From Chitinophagaceae bacterium (GTDB taxonomy: Bacteria > Bacteroidota > Bacteroidia > Chitinophagales > Chitinophagaceae): a stretch of DNA of 64,000 bases. The notes under the pieces were generated by a model. That model ran no database searches. It was not told the origin of the DNA and saw only the letters and a program-made list of their open reading frames with translations. Below, piece after piece: positions 33,220 through 42,235 of the stretch. The translations under genes were made by a program, and so were the position numbers. Within the stretch, counting starts at the first letter, position 1; the number at the start of each line of letters is the position of its first letter. The stretch is taken from positions 1-64,000 of the forward strand of contig CANGBH010000001.1 of NCBI GenBank assembly GCA_947451935.1, in the 5' to 3' direction.

Positions 33220-35016
33220 TTAACCCTTTTGATCCTGCAAAATTTGTAGAAAAGCATACGCCCCTTTGGATTTAATCAGCTCATCGTGGGTACCTGATTC
33301 CACTATTTCCCCTTTGTCCAGCAAGAGGATTTGAGAAGCTTTCCTAATTGTAGACAATCTATGCGCTATTATTATGGATGTTCTACCTGCGGTCAACACC
33401 TCAATAGCATGCTGAATCAGTTTTTCAGTATGACTATCAACCGAAGAAGTGGCTTCATCCAATACCAAAATAGCAGGTTTAAACAATAAAGCACGCATAA
33501 AAGATAGCAATTGGCGTTGCCCCATAGATAAGGTACCCCCTCTCTCCATAACATTATAATGATATCCCTCTGGCAATTGCTCGATAAAGTCGTGAATCCC
33601 AATCAGTTTTGCAGCCTCCTTTACCTCATCTAACCTAATAGCAGGATCACGAAGACTTACATTTTCATAAACAGACCCCGAAAAAAGATAAACATCCTGC
33701 AGTACCACCCCAATTTGACGCCTCAATGTATTAATGTGAAAATCCTCTATATTCAAGTCATCAATTAGGATTCTTCCATTAGTATGCTGATACAAACGAT
33801 TAATTAAGCTGATGATGGTAGATTTGCCACTACCCGTATGCCCGACTATCGCCAGGGTCTCTCCCGGCTTAACACAAAAAGAAATATTGGTCAATACAGG
33901 CGTTCCTTCTACATAGCTGAATCCTACATGCTGGAACTCGATTTTCCCTTCAATCTTATGATCCACTGACTTTGGATTATCTTCAATGAGATCTTCGTTT
34001 GATAAAACTACCAATACCCGCTCTCCAGCAACCATACCCATTTGCAGAACATTAAACTTATCCGCGATGACCCTTAATGGTCGAAAAAGTAGATTCAATA
34101 AGAGTATAAAGGAGACAATATTACCTGTTACACTAGCCGCTTCAAGTGGGCTCAATTGATACGCGTTCCTGGCGGCAAACCAGACCAATAATCCCATAGA
34201 AAATGCAAGTATTATTTCTACCACTGGGAAAAAGACAGAATAGGCAAAAATGGCACTGATATTTGCATCACGGTGATGTCGATTGATTTTTTCAAATTGA
34301 TGTTGCTCCTTTTTTTCAGCATTAAATGCCTGGATTACTTGCATACCCGATATATGCTCCTGCACAAACGCATTCAACGAGGCAATGGCATTACGAACGC
34401 TAACAAACGATTTATTTACACTCTCTTTAAAAAAATAGGTGGCTATTAATAAAAAGGGGAAAGGGATGATACAAATAATAGTCAATTGCCAATTCGTGTA
34501 AAACATAGCTGCCAAGATTGCCAATATAGAAAGCAGGTCTGCTACTATCGGTATGAAGCCTTCAGAAAATATATCATTGATGGCCTCAATATCATTAATT
34601 GTTCTTGTAGTCAACGTACCAATCGGCGTCTTATCAAATTGACGTAAATTCAAGGATAGAATTTTTTCGTACACATTCAATCGTATGTCCTTTACAACAC
34701 GATGACCCAACCAAGACGTTATGTAGGTAAAGAAAAAACGAAGTACGCTTTCAACTACCAATACTACAATTTGAATCAGCGTAATAGACAACAAAAAATG
34801 CATAATGAGCTCTCCACTTGAATTTGGATCAGCGCTAATACGATGAAGTGTTTTATTGATTAATAGTGGCCTAAGCGGTGCTAATAATGCAAGCACAATG
34901 GCTAAGAGAACCGATAAATAAAATTTTCCAGCGTATGGCTTTGCAAATGAATAAATCCTTCGCAATAATGTTAAATCAAATACCTTTTTTTTCTGGCTTG
35001 CCTTTTCATTACTCAT
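33220..35016 (-). CDS. MsbA-like ABC transporter (fused TM-ATPase exporter)
   Basis: Six-TM N-terminal domain; VGHTGSGKSTIISLI, LSMGQRQLLSFMRALL, ILVLDEATSSVD. Confidence 0.94.
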   Translation of the reverse strand: MSNEKASQKKKVFDLTLLRRIYSFAKPYAGKFYLSVLLAIVLALLAPLRPLLINKTLHRISADPNSSGELIMHFLLSITLIQIVVLVVESVLRFFFTYITSWLGHRVVKDIRLNVYEKILSLNLRQFDKTPIGTLTTRTINDIEAINDIFSEGFIPIVADLLSILAILAAMFYTNWQLTIICIIPFPFLLIATYFFKESVNKSFVSVRNAIASLNAFVQEHISGMQVIQAFNAEKKEQHQFEKINRHHRDANISAIFAYSVFFPVVEIILAFSMGLLVWFAARNAYQLSPLEAASVTGNIVSFILLLNLLFRPLRVIADKFNVLQMGMVAGERVLVVLSNEDLIEDNPKSVDHKIEGKIEFQHVGFSYVEGTPVLTNISFCVKPGETLAIVGHTGSGKSTIISLINRLYQHTNGRILIDDLNIEDFHINTLRRQIGVVLQDVYLFSGSVYENVSLRDPAIRLDEVKEAAKLIGIHDFIEQLPEGYHYNVMERGGTLSMGQRQLLSFMRALLFKPAILVLDEATSSVDSHTEKLIQHAIEVLTAGRTSIIIAHRLSTIRKASQILLLDKGEIVESGTHDELIKSKGAYAFLQILQDQKG

Positions 35017-35033: not shown

Positions 35034-37220
35034 CTAACGCATATTATTTGAATACGCTTTAATAAATAGAGCACCTAAATTTTTATGTGGAGGGATATAA
35101 TTATCAAATCGCTCCTTTCCAAGTCCGGAAGAAAATTGCTTTTCTAGCTGACTCCACATGGCCACCCAATCAACTCGCTCACCTTTTCTTAACGATTCAT
35201 TAATCAACTTCAAAATGGGCTCGTTAACTAGTTTTGTTCCAACTTCTTTTGATGATACAATATGAGCTTGTGGACAAACTTCTAAAATTGCATTCAGATT
35301 TTGAAAGCCCCCGCAAGACCCTAAAACAATGATTTTAGCAGTTGAGGGCAATTGACTAATGGTAGACTTCAAATGATAACTATGCCCTCGGTGAATAACT
35401 ATAGTTGGGTAAAGCTTCATCTCAGTAAGGTAGGAAGATAATGCAGCCTGTGCCTTAGCGTCTGGATCATCCTCTTTGGAATTATCAAGAGGAAGATTAG
35501 CAAAAATCCAAACCGGCTCCCCTAATAAAGACCTTATTTCAACCCATTGATCTTTCTCAGTAATTTTCCATTCGTTCTTACCAACAAACATCCCCATAAA
35601 ATTATTAAACGACTCTTTCCCATCTTTGTCCCCATAAAAAAATACTTGTTGAACAACTCTCCCATTTGAATCAGATAGGTCGTTATAATTCATTGTATAA
35701 ACAGGCGGGATATGATACCGTTCAGAAAGCAACCCGGTTTTATCGTTCGCAGATTTAGTTAATAAATCCAAAATATCATAAATTAAAAGACCTCGCTTAT
35801 TATTGTTTTTTGTTTGCAACAAAAGATTTCGTTCAACCTCAGCAATCACTAATTGTTTAGTAAGTGGGTCATTTATGCTACTATAAGAGTCGGCAACATC
35901 AACAGCATCTTCAAGATCAAATGTTTTTTCAAGCCCTCTGACAAATGACTTCATCAAAAGATTAGCGGATGGATCTGGCATAGTTGACAAAAATTCATTC
36001 AGCTTATTATAACCAGCTGCCATTTTAATAAATTTCCTAAATCGATCAAATCGAACCTGAAGCAGCAACGTATCCCCTGCCCCATTTCGAACTTTCTCCA
36101 TCATCCGATTATAGACTCCCGTATAACTTGAAGTATATAGAATATCCTCTCCAGTTACTATGATATAATAGAGCTCCTCAGCAGTCAAAGGCTGAAGCAC
36201 TCGAAATCGAACAGCATCTACCTCATCATGCAAAGCATTTATTTCATTAATATAAAGTTCCTCTGCTTTTTTAGCTATCATTTCTATGACTTCATGGTAT
36301 AACACAGGGGTATCCTTTTTACGCAAGGCATCCATGTATTCCAGTTCAGTTTTAACCAACAATTGATAATACTTCTGTCCATCTTCAGCAATTGAGCTGA
36401 TTTTGTCATATCGAATATTTCCCTTCAGTATTGAATGCATAAAAGGGAATATCAATCGTCCAGATTTATCATCTGAAAGCCTAACCAATAATTGAACTAC
36501 CGAGTCATCAATTTGTCTCATTTTAATGCCTAACGTTGAATTTCGGGCAGAAGCGTAATTATAAAACTGCTGAGGATTTGTTCTTGAGGCAGATATGATT
36601 AGGCTATCCGCATAAGGTTGCCCTAAGTATGGATCAATAGTAAGCAAGATTTTATCAGGATATTTTGATGCAAATTGCTTGTACGTGTAGGCTTTTACAT
36701 CAGCTAAGCCTTTTGAATCAAAGAAAATCGTATTAATGCCAAACAGAATATCATTTACTTCATAAGGGTAATTAATAGCTATAGACAGCATAGAGCCTGA
36801 TAATTCATCATACAACATTGCCTCCTTAAAGGCATCGTATAATAAAATCCCATAGCTTAAATCAATTGTGGCGGAATTAATTGCGGCCTTATATTTTTCG
36901 AGCCAAATACGTATTCCAGTTAAATATTTAACCTTGCTTCGATGGTCTAATCCCTCATCAACTTCTATTGAATGTTGAAGTTCATCTACCTGCCTAAAAT
37001 AAATATCGGTCAGAAGAAGCCCCAATTCTGTATCTAGTTTTAAAGTCAAGAATTTATTATGCAAAGGGGCCGGACCGCATAACAATTCTTGCTGTGCATC
37101 AATATCCTCATGCAATTTCAGCCTTTTAATGTCTATCGATACCTTTCCCGTATCCTGAGCAGCGTGAACTGAGGATAAGAAAAAAAGTAAAAAAAGAGTG
37201 GATAACAGGATAAAACGCAT
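35034..37220 (-). CDS. Secreted 728-aa protein with C-terminal clan-CD/caspase-hemoglobinase-like domain
   Basis: Signal peptide MRFILLSTLFLLFFLSSVHA; C-terminal beta segments VVQQVFFYGD, PVWIFANLPL, PTIVIHRGHSYH, AKIIVLGSCGG with His and Cys at strand ends. Confidence 0.6.
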   Translation of the reverse strand: MRFILLSTLFLLFFLSSVHAAQDTGKVSIDIKRLKLHEDIDAQQELLCGPAPLHNKFLTLKLDTELGLLLTDIYFRQVDELQHSIEVDEGLDHRSKVKYLTGIRIWLEKYKAAINSATIDLSYGILLYDAFKEAMLYDELSGSMLSIAINYPYEVNDILFGINTIFFDSKGLADVKAYTYKQFASKYPDKILLTIDPYLGQPYADSLIISASRTNPQQFYNYASARNSTLGIKMRQIDDSVVQLLVRLSDDKSGRLIFPFMHSILKGNIRYDKISSIAEDGQKYYQLLVKTELEYMDALRKKDTPVLYHEVIEMIAKKAEELYINEINALHDEVDAVRFRVLQPLTAEELYYIIVTGEDILYTSSYTGVYNRMMEKVRNGAGDTLLLQVRFDRFRKFIKMAAGYNKLNEFLSTMPDPSANLLMKSFVRGLEKTFDLEDAVDVADSYSSINDPLTKQLVIAEVERNLLLQTKNNNKRGLLIYDILDLLTKSANDKTGLLSERYHIPPVYTMNYNDLSDSNGRVVQQVFFYGDKDGKESFNNFMGMFVGKNEWKITEKDQWVEIRSLLGEPVWIFANLPLDNSKEDDPDAKAQAALSSYLTEMKLYPTIVIHRGHSYHLKSTISQLPSTAKIIVLGSCGGFQNLNAILEVCPQAHIVSSKEVGTKLVNEPILKLINESLRKGERVDWVAMWSQLEKQFSSGLGKERFDNYIPPHKNLGALFIKAYSNNMR

Positions 37221-37375: not shown

Positions 37376-38056
37376 ATGGGATCTGACAGTAAACGTATTT
37401 TGATTGCAGATGACGAACAGGATATTCTGGAGATCATGACCTATAATCTCCAACTTCATGGCTATGAAGTGGCCAATGCAAAAGACGGCGATGAAGCAAT
37501 ACAAAAGGCCAAAGACTTCAAACCTGAACTGATTATTCTAGACATCATGATGCCCAAAAAAAATGGGATTGAAGTATGTAAAATACTTCGATCACAGGCA
37601 ATCTTTAATGATACGATCATCATATTTCTTACTGCCCTAAATGATGAATTGTCGCATGTTAAAGGCTTAGAATTTGGGGCAGACGATTACATCAGCAAAC
37701 CCATTTCCCCTAAAATACTGGTCTCCAAAGTAAATTCACTATTTAGACGACTTACAAAATCAGATACGGGTAAAATAATTGAAATTGGGGATATAAAAAT
37801 AGATTCAGACCAATACTTGGTATACTATAAAGAAGAGCCAATAAGTTTGGCAAAAAAAGAATTTGAGCTCATCTCTTATCTTGCCTCGAAACCAGGAAGG
37901 GTCTTTCTTAGAAATGAAATTCTCAATCAAATTTGGGGGAGTGAAGTGATTGTTGGCGATCGTACCATTGACGTCCACGTTAGAAAAATAAGACAAAAGT
38001 TAGGCGTTGACTGTATCACAACGGTAAAGGGAGTTGGGTACAAATTTGAACTTTAA
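37376..38056 (+). CDS. PhoB-like OmpR-family response regulator
   Basis: ILIADDEQDILEIM, IILDIMMPKKNGIEVC, DDYISKPI, wHTH DRTIDVHVRKIRQKLG..ITTVKGVGYKFEL. Confidence 0.93.
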   Translation: MGSDSKRILIADDEQDILEIMTYNLQLHGYEVANAKDGDEAIQKAKDFKPELIILDIMMPKKNGIEVCKILRSQAIFNDTIIIFLTALNDELSHVKGLEFGADDYISKPISPKILVSKVNSLFRRLTKSDTGKIIEIGDIKIDSDQYLVYYKEEPISLAKKEFELISYLASKPGRVFLRNEILNQIWGSEVIVGDRTIDVHVRKIRQKLGVDCITTVKGVGYKFEL

Positions 38057-38101: not shown

Positions 38102-39154
38102 ATGTTCGAAACTAAAAATTACACACCAGTTCAGCTTGCATTACTGAATGCACTTGTTATTACCTTATGTGGATTTTTAATCACCCTCCTTTTTTCAGAA
38201 AACGTAGTTTTCACAATTATACTATCCATTGTCTTATTTGGAGTAAGTTTTTTACTTACTCGATTTCTAGTCGACAAATTTGTAAATAGAAAGATTAAAT
38301 TAATTTATAAGTTCATCCACCAAACCAAAGCATCGAAAAGGGAAGAGTTTTTCAAAAAAACAATACTCCCACAACAAAGTCTGGAAGAAGTTGGCGAAGA
38401 TGTATTGCTCTGGGCCGACCAACGAAAAGCTGAGATGGAAATGCTTGAAAAAAATGAAATATTCAGAAAGGAATTTTTACAAAACCTTTCACATGAGTTC
38501 AAAACCCCTGCATTTGCTATTCAGGGCTATCTTGAAACATTAATTGCTGGCGCAATTGATGTTCCTGAAGTGAGCAAGAAATTTCTTGGCAAAGCTTTTC
38601 AAAATACAGAGCGACTCATTCACCTAATATCAGATTTGGACGAAATCACGAAATTAGAAAGTGGCAAACAGGAATTATTTATTCAACGATTTATAGTACA
38701 AGATTTAATTCATGAAGTGTTTGATTCACTCAGCTTCAAAGCTGAAGCAAAAAGCATAAAATGTTTTATAAAGAAAGGTTGCGAACAGCCATTAACAGTT
38801 GAAGCTGACAAAGAAAAGATTAGGCAAGTACTTACCAACCTAGTTGACAATGCTATTAAATATGGTAATCCTGAAGGGAAAGTAGAAGCAAGTATTTACC
38901 AAACAGATGACAGGAACTCACTGATAGAAATCAGTGATGATGGAATTGGAATTGAAGAAGAGCATCTTTCAAGAATCTTTGAGCGATTCTATAGAACTGA
39001 TTACGGAAGGAGCAGAAACATTGGGGGCACAGGGCTCGGACTAGCCATTTGTAAACATATCATAGAAGCGCATGGACAAATCATTCATGTAAGGAGCAAA
39101 ACTAGTGTTGGCACCACATTTGGATTTACCTTAAAAACAAAATTAGACAACTAA
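38102..39154 (+). CDS. PhoR-like sensor histidine kinase
   Basis: Two N-terminal TMs, FLQNLSHEFKTPAFAIQGYLETL (H-box), NLVDNAIKYG, GGTGLGLAICKHIIEAHGG-like HATPase. Confidence 0.93.
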   Translation: MFETKNYTPVQLALLNALVITLCGFLITLLFSENVVFTIILSIVLFGVSFLLTRFLVDKFVNRKIKLIYKFIHQTKASKREEFFKKTILPQQSLEEVGEDVLLWADQRKAEMEMLEKNEIFRKEFLQNLSHEFKTPAFAIQGYLETLIAGAIDVPEVSKKFLGKAFQNTERLIHLISDLDEITKLESGKQELFIQRFIVQDLIHEVFDSLSFKAEAKSIKCFIKKGCEQPLTVEADKEKIRQVLTNLVDNAIKYGNPEGKVEASIYQTDDRNSLIEISDDGIGIEEEHLSRIFERFYRTDYGRSRNIGGTGLGLAICKHIIEAHGQIIHVRSKTSVGTTFGFTLKTKLDN

Positions 39155-39233: not shown

Positions 39234-40445
39234 ATGGCCTTAAAGTACATTATATGTGTTATTTGCTTTCTATGTAGCCAACTTATTGAGGCCAGATCCA
39301 AAACAACTTTCACAGACGACTCTATTCACATTGATTTTTTAGGAAAGGCATATTCACTTCCTCCAATAGGAGGATTAGAACAATTTTCTGGAGATATTAA
39401 TGAGACTAAAATATCTGAATATGCAAACCACCTACCATCAAATCAATTAAACGAGGTATGTCTATCCCTTTTATCTATTCAAAAAAAAGAAAACCTTGAC
39501 GATTGGTTATACTATCAATTAGTTCGCAGAACCGCACAGGAGTGCATTCATAAGAAGGAAGATTATATTGGATATACCATGTTGAAATGGTATATCTTAA
39601 GCTATACAGGATATGAACCACTCTTAAGCGTTTCTGAAAACAAATTACTGCTTTACATAAAGAGTGATGACGTCATATATAATCAACCACTAAAAAAAAT
39701 TGAGGATAAACAATATGTCTGCCTGAACTACCATGACTATGGATTCAACGTAGACTTTAATCACGAAAAGTTTATCAATATAACAAGCTTACTAAAAGAG
39801 GGGGGGGCGTTTACTTTCTTAGTTAAAACACTTCCAGATTTTGCAGAATCCACTTATAAAACCAAGGAGTTAAAATTTCAATATAAAAAAAAGGCTGATC
39901 AAGTAAATATAAAATTAAATACAAATCTGAGTAGTTATTTTACCAACTACCCTGTAACTGAATATAAGAATCAATTTAATATTCCATTATCTAAAGAAAC
40001 GTACCAATCACTTATTCCTGCGCTAAAAGAAAAGCTAATCAATTTTGATAAAAACAAAGGAGTTGAATACCTTATGTATTTCACAAGGCATGCTTTTATC
40101 TTTGAAAGCGACACTGAAATATTTGGAAGAGAAAAAAGACTTTCACCCGAAGAAACACTCTTCTATGAGAAAAGTGATTGTGAAGACAGATCGGCACTTT
40201 TCTTTTTACTTGTAAAGGAAATATATGACCTCCCAATGATTGTTTTATCCTCACCACAACATGTTACAGTAGCTGTAAAACTAGATAAGCCATCCAAACA
40301 TTCTATACTTTACGAAGGCAACCAATATACTATATGCGAACCAACACCACAAGGTAGGGAATTAAAAGTAGGTGAGGAAACATCAACTATTCGGAAGCAA
40401 CATTTTACAGTTGAATTTGCATATGATCCTACAGAAAACAAATAA
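39234..40445 (+). CDS. Secreted protein with transglutaminase-like Cys/His motifs
   Basis: Signal peptide; FYEKSDCEDRSALFFLLVKEIYDLPMIVLSSPQHVTVAVKL resembles the TGase-like Cys and His motif arrangement. Confidence 0.55.
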   Translation: MALKYIICVICFLCSQLIEARSKTTFTDDSIHIDFLGKAYSLPPIGGLEQFSGDINETKISEYANHLPSNQLNEVCLSLLSIQKKENLDDWLYYQLVRRTAQECIHKKEDYIGYTMLKWYILSYTGYEPLLSVSENKLLLYIKSDDVIYNQPLKKIEDKQYVCLNYHDYGFNVDFNHEKFINITSLLKEGGAFTFLVKTLPDFAESTYKTKELKFQYKKKADQVNIKLNTNLSSYFTNYPVTEYKNQFNIPLSKETYQSLIPALKEKLINFDKNKGVEYLMYFTRHAFIFESDTEIFGREKRLSPEETLFYEKSDCEDRSALFFLLVKEIYDLPMIVLSSPQHVTVAVKLDKPSKHSILYEGNQYTICEPTPQGRELKVGEETSTIRKQHFTVEFAYDPTENK

Positions 40446-40606: not shown

Positions 40607-42235
40607 TTAAAAGCCCCATCGAGTCCATCCACTTGTCCAATCTGTAGTTCCAATTGCACCCACAAAAGATACCTTTTCAAAAAATGCATCAGTAAGTTTT
40701 GTAGGAGCGAAATCAGCTCCGGATAATAAAATGGATCCTCCACCAGGATTTAAATTAGGTGCAAGGTTGTTGAATGGATCAGTTAAACCTAAAGTAGATA
40801 CATCAGACACTTCAACAGTTCCTGTGGCCGCATAGGTACTTTTAATTGTAGATAGGTCGTATACGGCAAAATTTGGAATAGTATATTTAGCATCCGCACT
40901 ATAAAAATCGGCAACAGCAAATGTTGGCGTTTGATCATTAATATAACAATGCTGTAACAAGCTTGAACCGTTCAAGAAATAAGATATAGTAGAATCTTCT
41001 TGAACTCGGAACGCTGCTTTTTTTGCACCAAGTACAACGGAATTAGCCAATATAAATTGAGCACCTCTTCTCCAACGCATACCATACCCATAATCAGCAG
41101 ACATTCCAGCTGCATTATTTGGACCAATAGCGGTAAAATTAGACATAACAGGTGACGTAATAGGCGTTCTTGAGTAAGCTAATCCATTAGATGGATTCAC
41201 ATTATCAACTTCGAAATTGTTAGAGATATCACCTGTTGATCCTTTAGGATCTGTGAATGTTGGGTCTTTAATAGAAATAGCAAATTGAATTTTACCACGG
41301 TATCCATCATCAAAGTCAAAATCATCATCCGCACTATTATATGCAACTAGGTGCTTACAGTTAACAGCTCCACCAAATATTTCAAATGCATCGTCATATC
41401 CTCTTGCCACCTGAACATAATCAATCTCAGTTCCACTACCTACTCCATATAAAGAAAGACCATTTACTTCATCACCAGGATTAACTGCTTTCCCAGCATA
41501 TTCAATACGAACATACCTCAGAATTCCAGAATTGTCTGCATCATTATTACCTCCAAATGATTGGTAGTTTACATCAAGTCCGCCTTCAATTACTTTGTGG
41601 TTTCCATTAACTTTAGCATTACCAGCAATAACTACACCACCAAAATCACCCGGTGCAGGAGATGCGTCATTTGATGTGAATACAATCGGATTCGCAGCAG
41701 TACCTTCAGCCATTATTTTTGAACCTGGAGTGATAACTAGCACACCAGCTGAATCTTTATCAGAAACAATTTTAGTTCCTGCTTCTATAGTTAGTACTGA
41801 GTTTGTGGTTACATATACATATCCACGTATTCTGTATACAAAATCTTTTTTCCATGTTGTACTGGCATTGATTATACCTCTAACATCAAACTGAGTTCCA
41901 GCTCCGAAAAATGTAAATCCTGCTAACTTTGCAGTGCCCCCTGGGGTTGTTACAGTAACGTCACCTGAAGCTCCATTACCAAGAGTTGCAGTAATTGAAG
42001 TTGAATTAACCACCGTATATGAAGATGCTGCTGTTCCACCAAACTTCACTGAAGTGACATTAGCAAAATTAGCACCCATAATAGTAATTACATCGCCACT
42101 AGCTCCAGATGTAGCAGAAACACTAGTAATAGTAGGTGCTGGTACAATTTCTGGAGGCGTGACTTCTTCTGTTTTTTTACAAGCAAAAGCGCTGAATAGT
42201 AGCACTGCAATACTTAGACCCCTTAAATTTTTCAT
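40607..42235 (-). CDS. IPT/TIG-domain lipoprotein with parallel-beta-like surface domain
   Basis: Lipobox LLFSAFACKK; PTITSVSATSGASGDVITIMGANFANVTSVKFGG (IPT/TIG); LTIEAGTKIVSD..NPIVFTSND repeats. Confidence 0.85.
   Translation of the reverse strand: MKNLRGLSIAVLLFSAFACKKTEEVTPPEIVPAPTITSVSATSGASGDVITIMGANFANVTSVKFGGTAASSYTVVNSTSITATLGNGASGDVTVTTPGGTAKLAGFTFFGAGTQFDVRGIINASTTWKKDFVYRIRGYVYVTTNSVLTIEAGTKIVSDKDSAGVLVITPGSKIMAEGTAANPIVFTSNDASPAPGDFGGVVIAGNAKVNGNHKVIEGGLDVNYQSFGGNNDADNSGILRYVRIEYAGKAVNPGDEVNGLSLYGVGSGTEIDYVQVARGYDDAFEIFGGAVNCKHLVAYNSADDDFDFDDGYRGKIQFAISIKDPTFTDPKGSTGDISNNFEVDNVNPSNGLAYSRTPITSPVMSNFTAIGPNNAAGMSADYGYGMRWRRGAQFILANSVVLGAKKAAFRVQEDSTISYFLNGSSLLQHCYINDQTPTFAVADFYSADAKYTIPNFAVYDLSTIKSTYAATGTVEVSDVSTLGLTDPFNNLAPNLNPGGGSILLSGADFAPTKLTDAFFEKVSFVGAIGTTDWTSGWTRWGF

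Follow-up and report, generated by a model that had tools for sequence, protein, structure and literature searches.

The window (the whole stretch of DNA analysed, 64,000 nucleotides of a Chitinophagaceae bacterium) carries on its minus strand a 728-aa open reading frame with an ATG start (37220..35034), itself a member of the protein family described here. Residues 1-20 of its product, MRFILLSTLFLLFFLSSVHA (37161..37220, minus strand), resemble a signal peptide, with cleavage predicted between SSVHA and AQ on the basis of the sequence and a count of the hydrophobic core. A hydrophobic N-terminal core was detected in all of the homologues with a chosen Met start (76/76), and a lipobox in 1 of these 76, such that the secreted 728-aa protein proposed by an earlier note on this DNA is borne out as a sequence-based prediction. 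AlphaFold2 placed an all-helical N-terminal region after the signal peptide (residues 31 to about 503; 35712..37130, minus strand), in which N328, H331, R338, Y351, T363 and S364 are conserved, and a C-terminal alpha/beta domain, the putative catalytic domain, at residues 515-728 (35037..35678, minus strand). The long helical region claimed by the earlier note was thus recovered as helix throughout, from residue 31 to about 502, and all four hydrophobic strands that it quoted from the C-terminus are among the strands of the model. We conclude that the open reading frame is genuine, and likewise the three parts of its product: the signal peptide, the long stretch of helices and the alpha/beta domain at the C-terminus.

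A gene for an MsbA-like ABC transporter with permease and ATPase (33220..35016, minus strand) lies 17 bp downstream on the same strand; its product scored 451 bits against TIGR02203, below the cut-off of 602. When synteny was counted over loci with enough flank, an MsbA-like transporter was found directly downstream and on the same strand in 50 of 73 family loci, often with a gap of a few bases or an overlap. The divergent neighbour is an OmpR/PhoB-type response regulator (37376..38056, plus strand), which was adjacent and divergent in 71 of 74 loci, and beyond it is a PhoR/PnpS-like histidine kinase with two close N-terminal hydrophobic segments (38102..39154, plus strand). This kinase, which is conserved beside the putative protease, has scant space for a periplasmic sensor domain. 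ATP synthase genes come next in many genomes. The neighbourhood suggests a regulated envelope function, without naming a substrate. Two further exported proteins are encoded nearby. The first, a 403-aa secreted protein (39234-40445, plus strand) with no Pfam or NCBIfam match, recurs close to the gene in several relatives, and its C-terminus (SDCEDRSALFF...SSPQHVTVAV) resembles a transglutaminase-like Cys-His motif. The second, of 542 aa (40607-42235, minus strand), has an IPT/TIG-like repeat and scored slightly below the cut-off of NCBIfam NF058597.

The 728-aa protein and its family had no significant match in Pfam, NCBIfam, PHROGs, PADLOC or PDB sequences, whether searched as single proteins or as profiles, and for these libraries the family is undescribed, as the earlier note had thought possible. 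No description of the family was found in a literature search that covered few subscription journals. Homologues were identified in 68 of 101 related genomes, in 182 of 399 genomes sampled from the order, and in 8/198 and 11/297 genomes of the class and phylum, respectively. Nearly every Chitinophagaceae genome carries one copy; the complete genomes G676 and G747 are without the gene. Some other families of the order have two copies of about 700 and about 1000 aa, often in tandem (L053:3141-8704, L055:3381-8699, L056:3345-8708, L057:4980-10098, L058:883-6213 and L066:3732-8538), and in several of these pairs the helical part of the query matched the ~1000-aa paralogue twice. By use of tblastn, homologues annotated only as hypothetical protein were also found on plasmids of Azospirillum, an alphaproteobacterium (L434:5368-7263, L435:5434-7209, L436:4585-6609 and L437:4393-6609). 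These are ~21% identical and keep HRGHS, GSCGG, DxDG, W551, W685, W689, Y708 and P711; three of the four adjoin DUF1194, LysE and GGDEF genes. No homologue was found in phage genomes or viral contigs, and thus the gene does not appear to be phage cargo.

Conservation was counted over 254 distinct homologues. Two motifs of the C-terminal domain stood out: HRGHS (residues 610-614; 35379..35393, minus strand), at the end of strand 3, and GSCGG (residues 634-638; 35307..35321, minus strand), at the end of strand 4. R611, G612, S614, G634, C636 and G637 were identical in 254/254 homologues, and H610 and H613 were each kept in 252. The invariance of HRGH and SCGG was a check set out by the earlier note, which had located the two motifs at about 35382-35402 and 35306-35321; the codons of H610 (35391-35393), H613 (35382-35384) and C636 (35313-35315) fall inside these intervals. 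C636, the proposed nucleophile, is the sole invariant Cys of the family, which argues against a conserved disulfide, and no His other than H610 and H613 is kept in 99% of homologues. A DxDG motif (D531-K-D533-G534; 35619..35630, minus strand), proposed as a P1-binding acid, lies at the junction of strand 1 and helix 1, with D531 and D533 each present in 252/254 homologues. N575 (250/254) and N666 (253/254) are nearly as constant, and four residues are identical throughout (254/254 each): W685 and W689, on the helix after strand 5 and helix 5 (35154..35168, minus strand), together with Y708 and P711 (35088..35099, minus strand). The pattern of conservation in HRGHS and GSCGG lies far beyond chance. 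Such near-absolute conservation, clustered at strand ends, indicates an enzyme active site, and support for the His and Cys sites is strong.

The few exceptions bear on what kind of site this is. H613 is replaced by Leu in L057:7090-10098 and by Tyr in L066:3732-6536, both ~1000-aa tandem paralogues that lack H613 only, and two other homologues lack H610 only. The loss of H613 counts against a cysteine peptidase, and would be consistent with a non-enzymatic binding protein whose domain is related to an enzyme but has lost catalysis and been retained to bind; a pocket kept almost without exception in 254 homologues from two phyla is, however, typical of an active enzyme, and we regard a dead enzyme as quite improbable for the family. 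The long copies at L057 and L066 may themselves be inactive, to judge by the residue that they have lost. The same invariant residues could instead form a metal site, in which H610, H613, C636 and D531/D533 bind Zn2+, Ca2+ or another ion in a hydrolytic or structural role, since the His, Cys and Asp are all found along one edge of the sheet and residues 531-534 resemble an EF-hand loop. The EF-hand matches are weak, at chance level (E 0.4-1.6 in PDB), H613 and H610 are each lost alone in two paralogues, and a dependence on Ca2+ would be equally compatible with clan CD; a metal site is thus considered improbable, though less so than a dead enzyme. H610 is conserved equally with H613, and so the assignment of H613 as the general base of a cysteine hydrolase remains a proposal.

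The structure of the domain was predicted with AlphaFold2. The full-length model, built with 77 sequences, had a mean pLDDT of 88.7 and a pTM of 0.77, and the model of residues 503-728 alone had a pLDDT of 91.4 and a pTM of 0.91. Strands were predicted at residues 522-528, 551-555, 559-564, 570-575, 607-611, 630-633 and 653-657, and helices of the domain at 532-543, 586-600, 614-622, 638-648 and 663-678, giving the order beta1-a1-beta2-a2-beta3(H)-a3-beta4(C)-a4-beta5. H613 comes just after strand 3 (607-611) and C636 just after strand 4 (630-633). The earlier note had put His and Cys at the ends of consecutive strands; in the model the strands are consecutive and the dyad is at their ends, although a helix (614-622) joins them. 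The core of the caspase/haemoglobinase fold has been defined by the same order of elements, with its dyad after strands 3 and 4 (PMC4357240); unlike this minimal core, the domain has an extra hairpin at 551-564.

Coevolution within the domain was analyzed with 254 sequences (Neff 140), which are the same homologues as the AlphaFold2 input; an earlier DCA with 157 sequences was excessively noisy. V608-A628, joining strand 3 to strand 4, was the second strongest coevolving pair, and strand 3-strand 4 was among the top strand pairs. In-register parallel signals were found for strands 2c-1 (521-571 and 525-575) and 1-3 (526-609 and 528-610). In a ladder test, the 3-4 pair exceeded the 95th percentile of random segments with an ambiguous orientation, and the 2c-1 and 1-3 pairs reached only about the 90th. 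Coevolution is therefore weakly supportive of a sheet order of 2-1-3-4 and is not proof of it.

We compared the models with known structures by Foldseek. The best matches of the domain model in PDB were G domains and small GTPases at TM 0.35-0.45, with the best E value (9.8e-4) at TM 0.35 and FeoB and Ran at TM about 0.45. The earlier note had named a comparison with C11, C14, C25 and CHAT as a check; here, no clan CD or caspase-fold chain was present among the best 50 of 1704 PDB matches of the domain model. The full-length model returned HflX, HEAT and G-domain noise only, and against a viral library the domain model again matched G domains, together with an unnamed protein at TM 0.45. G domains have a 2-1-3-4-5-like parallel core, and thus these matches fit the proposed strand order without supporting clan CD. 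A GTPase-like or HAD-like domain, for which the G-domain matches at E about 1e-3 and the likeness of D531-x-D533-G534, just where strand 1 ends, to HAD motif I could be cited, is nonetheless hardly credible. Strand 1 is followed by GDxDGx, with a variable position 535, rather than a Walker A GxxxxGK[ST], and the protein is exported to where GTP is not expected; GSCGG occupies the place where HAD enzymes need the acidic motif IV, helix 1 begins at 532 and would in the predicted model leave no room for a squiggle/flap, and there is no Pfam match to either superfamily.

Profile comparison by hhalign was performed against Bacteroidota-derived alignments of CHAT, C14, C25, C11 and DUF4347, with GATase and MMR_HSR1 as controls. 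P values were 0.011-0.015 for CHAT, 0.041-0.047 for C14 and 0.25-0.29 for C25, compared to 0.008-0.019 for the GATase control (0.008 with the wider alignment), and no score against CHAT, C14, C25, C11 or DUF4347 rose above the two controls. In unconstrained alignments, C636 fell, weakly, on the catalytic Cys of CHAT and C14. As a yardstick, the known clan CD families were compared with one another, and only CHAT-C14 was clear (2e-6). Since these families mostly miss each other in hhalign with such small alignments, the negative result is a weak one.

These comparisons also bear on whether the domain is a cysteine hydrolase or transferase on another Rossmann-like fold, for example with a nucleophile elbow like that of glutamine amidotransferases, its likeness to clan CD being convergent. 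GSCGG is compatible with a GxCxG elbow, hhalign gave a marginally better alignment to the GATase elbow (P 0.008) than to CHAT, and clan CD chains were missing from the best 50 of the 1704 Foldseek matches. Class I GATases, however, require a His after the Cys, and no invariant His follows C636 in the 254 homologues: H653 is His in 198/254 and is lost in Azospirillum. The invariant His residues are found instead 23-26 residues before the Cys and, as in clan CD, on the strand beside it. We consider a convergent fold of this type unlikely, if still the weightiest of the alternatives. In their specific forms, the HAD, P-loop GTPase and GATase readings were rejected by their motifs.

Two features of clan CD are present in the family, the His-then-Cys order (H613 in 252/254, then C636 in 254/254) and the Gly before the catalytic His (G612, 254/254), the latter a known clan CD trait (PMC12445089). 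Taken together, the inference of the earlier note is upheld by the order of the dyad, its position on the strands and its conservation across two phyla, but clan CD chains were absent from the best 50 of the 1704 Foldseek matches, and clan CD profiles did not exceed the controls in hhalign. Membership of the C-terminal domain in this clan is not proven; a clan-CD-like mode of working is the best-supported reading.

Among known systems, separase (MEROPS C50) is similar in its large helical N-terminal region, in a His-Cys domain at the extreme C-terminus, and in strands 3 and 4 that end in His and Cys. It prefers Arg at P1 (PMC4626109), and Arg/Lys is predicted for the 728-aa protein; by contrast, separase is eukaryotic, is not exported and has no sequence match to this protein, in which His-Ser and not His-Gly follows the catalytic position. 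CHAT/TPR-CHAT proteins (PF12770) likewise combine a helical N-terminus with a C-terminal domain whose catalytic Cys aligns, if weakly, with C636, but there is no Pfam match and the hhalign P values of 0.011-0.015 are not above controls. Gingipains (C25, PF01364) are exported Bacteroidota His-Cys peptidases with a P1-binding Asp where helix 1 begins, yet show no profile similarity (P 0.25-0.29). Metacaspases and paracaspases (C14B, PF00656) share the order of secondary structure, the dyad and an acidic residue for P1 Arg/Lys where helix 1 begins, but not a Pfam match (hhalign P 0.041-0.047) or the caspase HG...[AS]C spacing. The source genome encodes no CHAT, C14 or C11 protein and has two C25 genes elsewhere. 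YabG, a bacterial His-Cys protease proposed as a clan CD family from its dyad order and specificity, likewise shows no sequence similarity to the other families of the clan (PMC12445089); it differs, in a comparison made by description only, as a cytoplasmic sporulation protein of Firmicutes.

Based on the export signal, conservation, predicted layout and synteny, we favor, with somewhat better than even confidence, a cysteine hydrolase that is exported to the periplasm or the cell surface, acts in a clan-CD-like manner and is most likely an endopeptidase. In this enzyme, the carbonyl of a peptide substrate would be attacked by C636, where strand 4 ends, and H613, where strand 3 ends, would serve as general base; the S1 pocket would be lined by the acidic residues D531 and D533, located where strand 1 meets helix 1. 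In RgpB (D163), MALT1 (D365) and probably TbMCA2 (D95), P1 Arg is bound by an Asp located where helix 1 begins (PMC4357240). Since D531/D533 are at the equivalent position, cleavage after Arg or Lys is predicted, and by this analogy the peptidase is probably Arg/Lys-directed. The helical N-terminal half may serve as an arm that regulates the enzyme or docks its substrates, by analogy to separase and TPR-CHAT proteins. A link between expression and the divergent PhoB/PhoR-like pair is probable; the protein itself would act in the envelope, with or beside the MsbA-like exporter.

We put at about even the prospect that the 728-aa protein is the founding member of a new family of cysteine peptidases of Bacteroidota and Azospirillum, exported and separase-like, that either belongs to clan CD as a new family or has a His-Cys fold that arose by convergence. 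The family would be controlled by a two-component system of the envelope and present in nearly all Chitinophagaceae. Should this hold, an envelope protein that almost every member of the Chitinophagaceae has, at most 'hypothetical' in annotation, would be a protease of a new family, and an exported, separase-like layout would join the known His-Cys peptidases. The fixed place of the gene beside a two-component pair and an MsbA-like exporter leads to the hypothesis of regulated proteolysis in the envelope.
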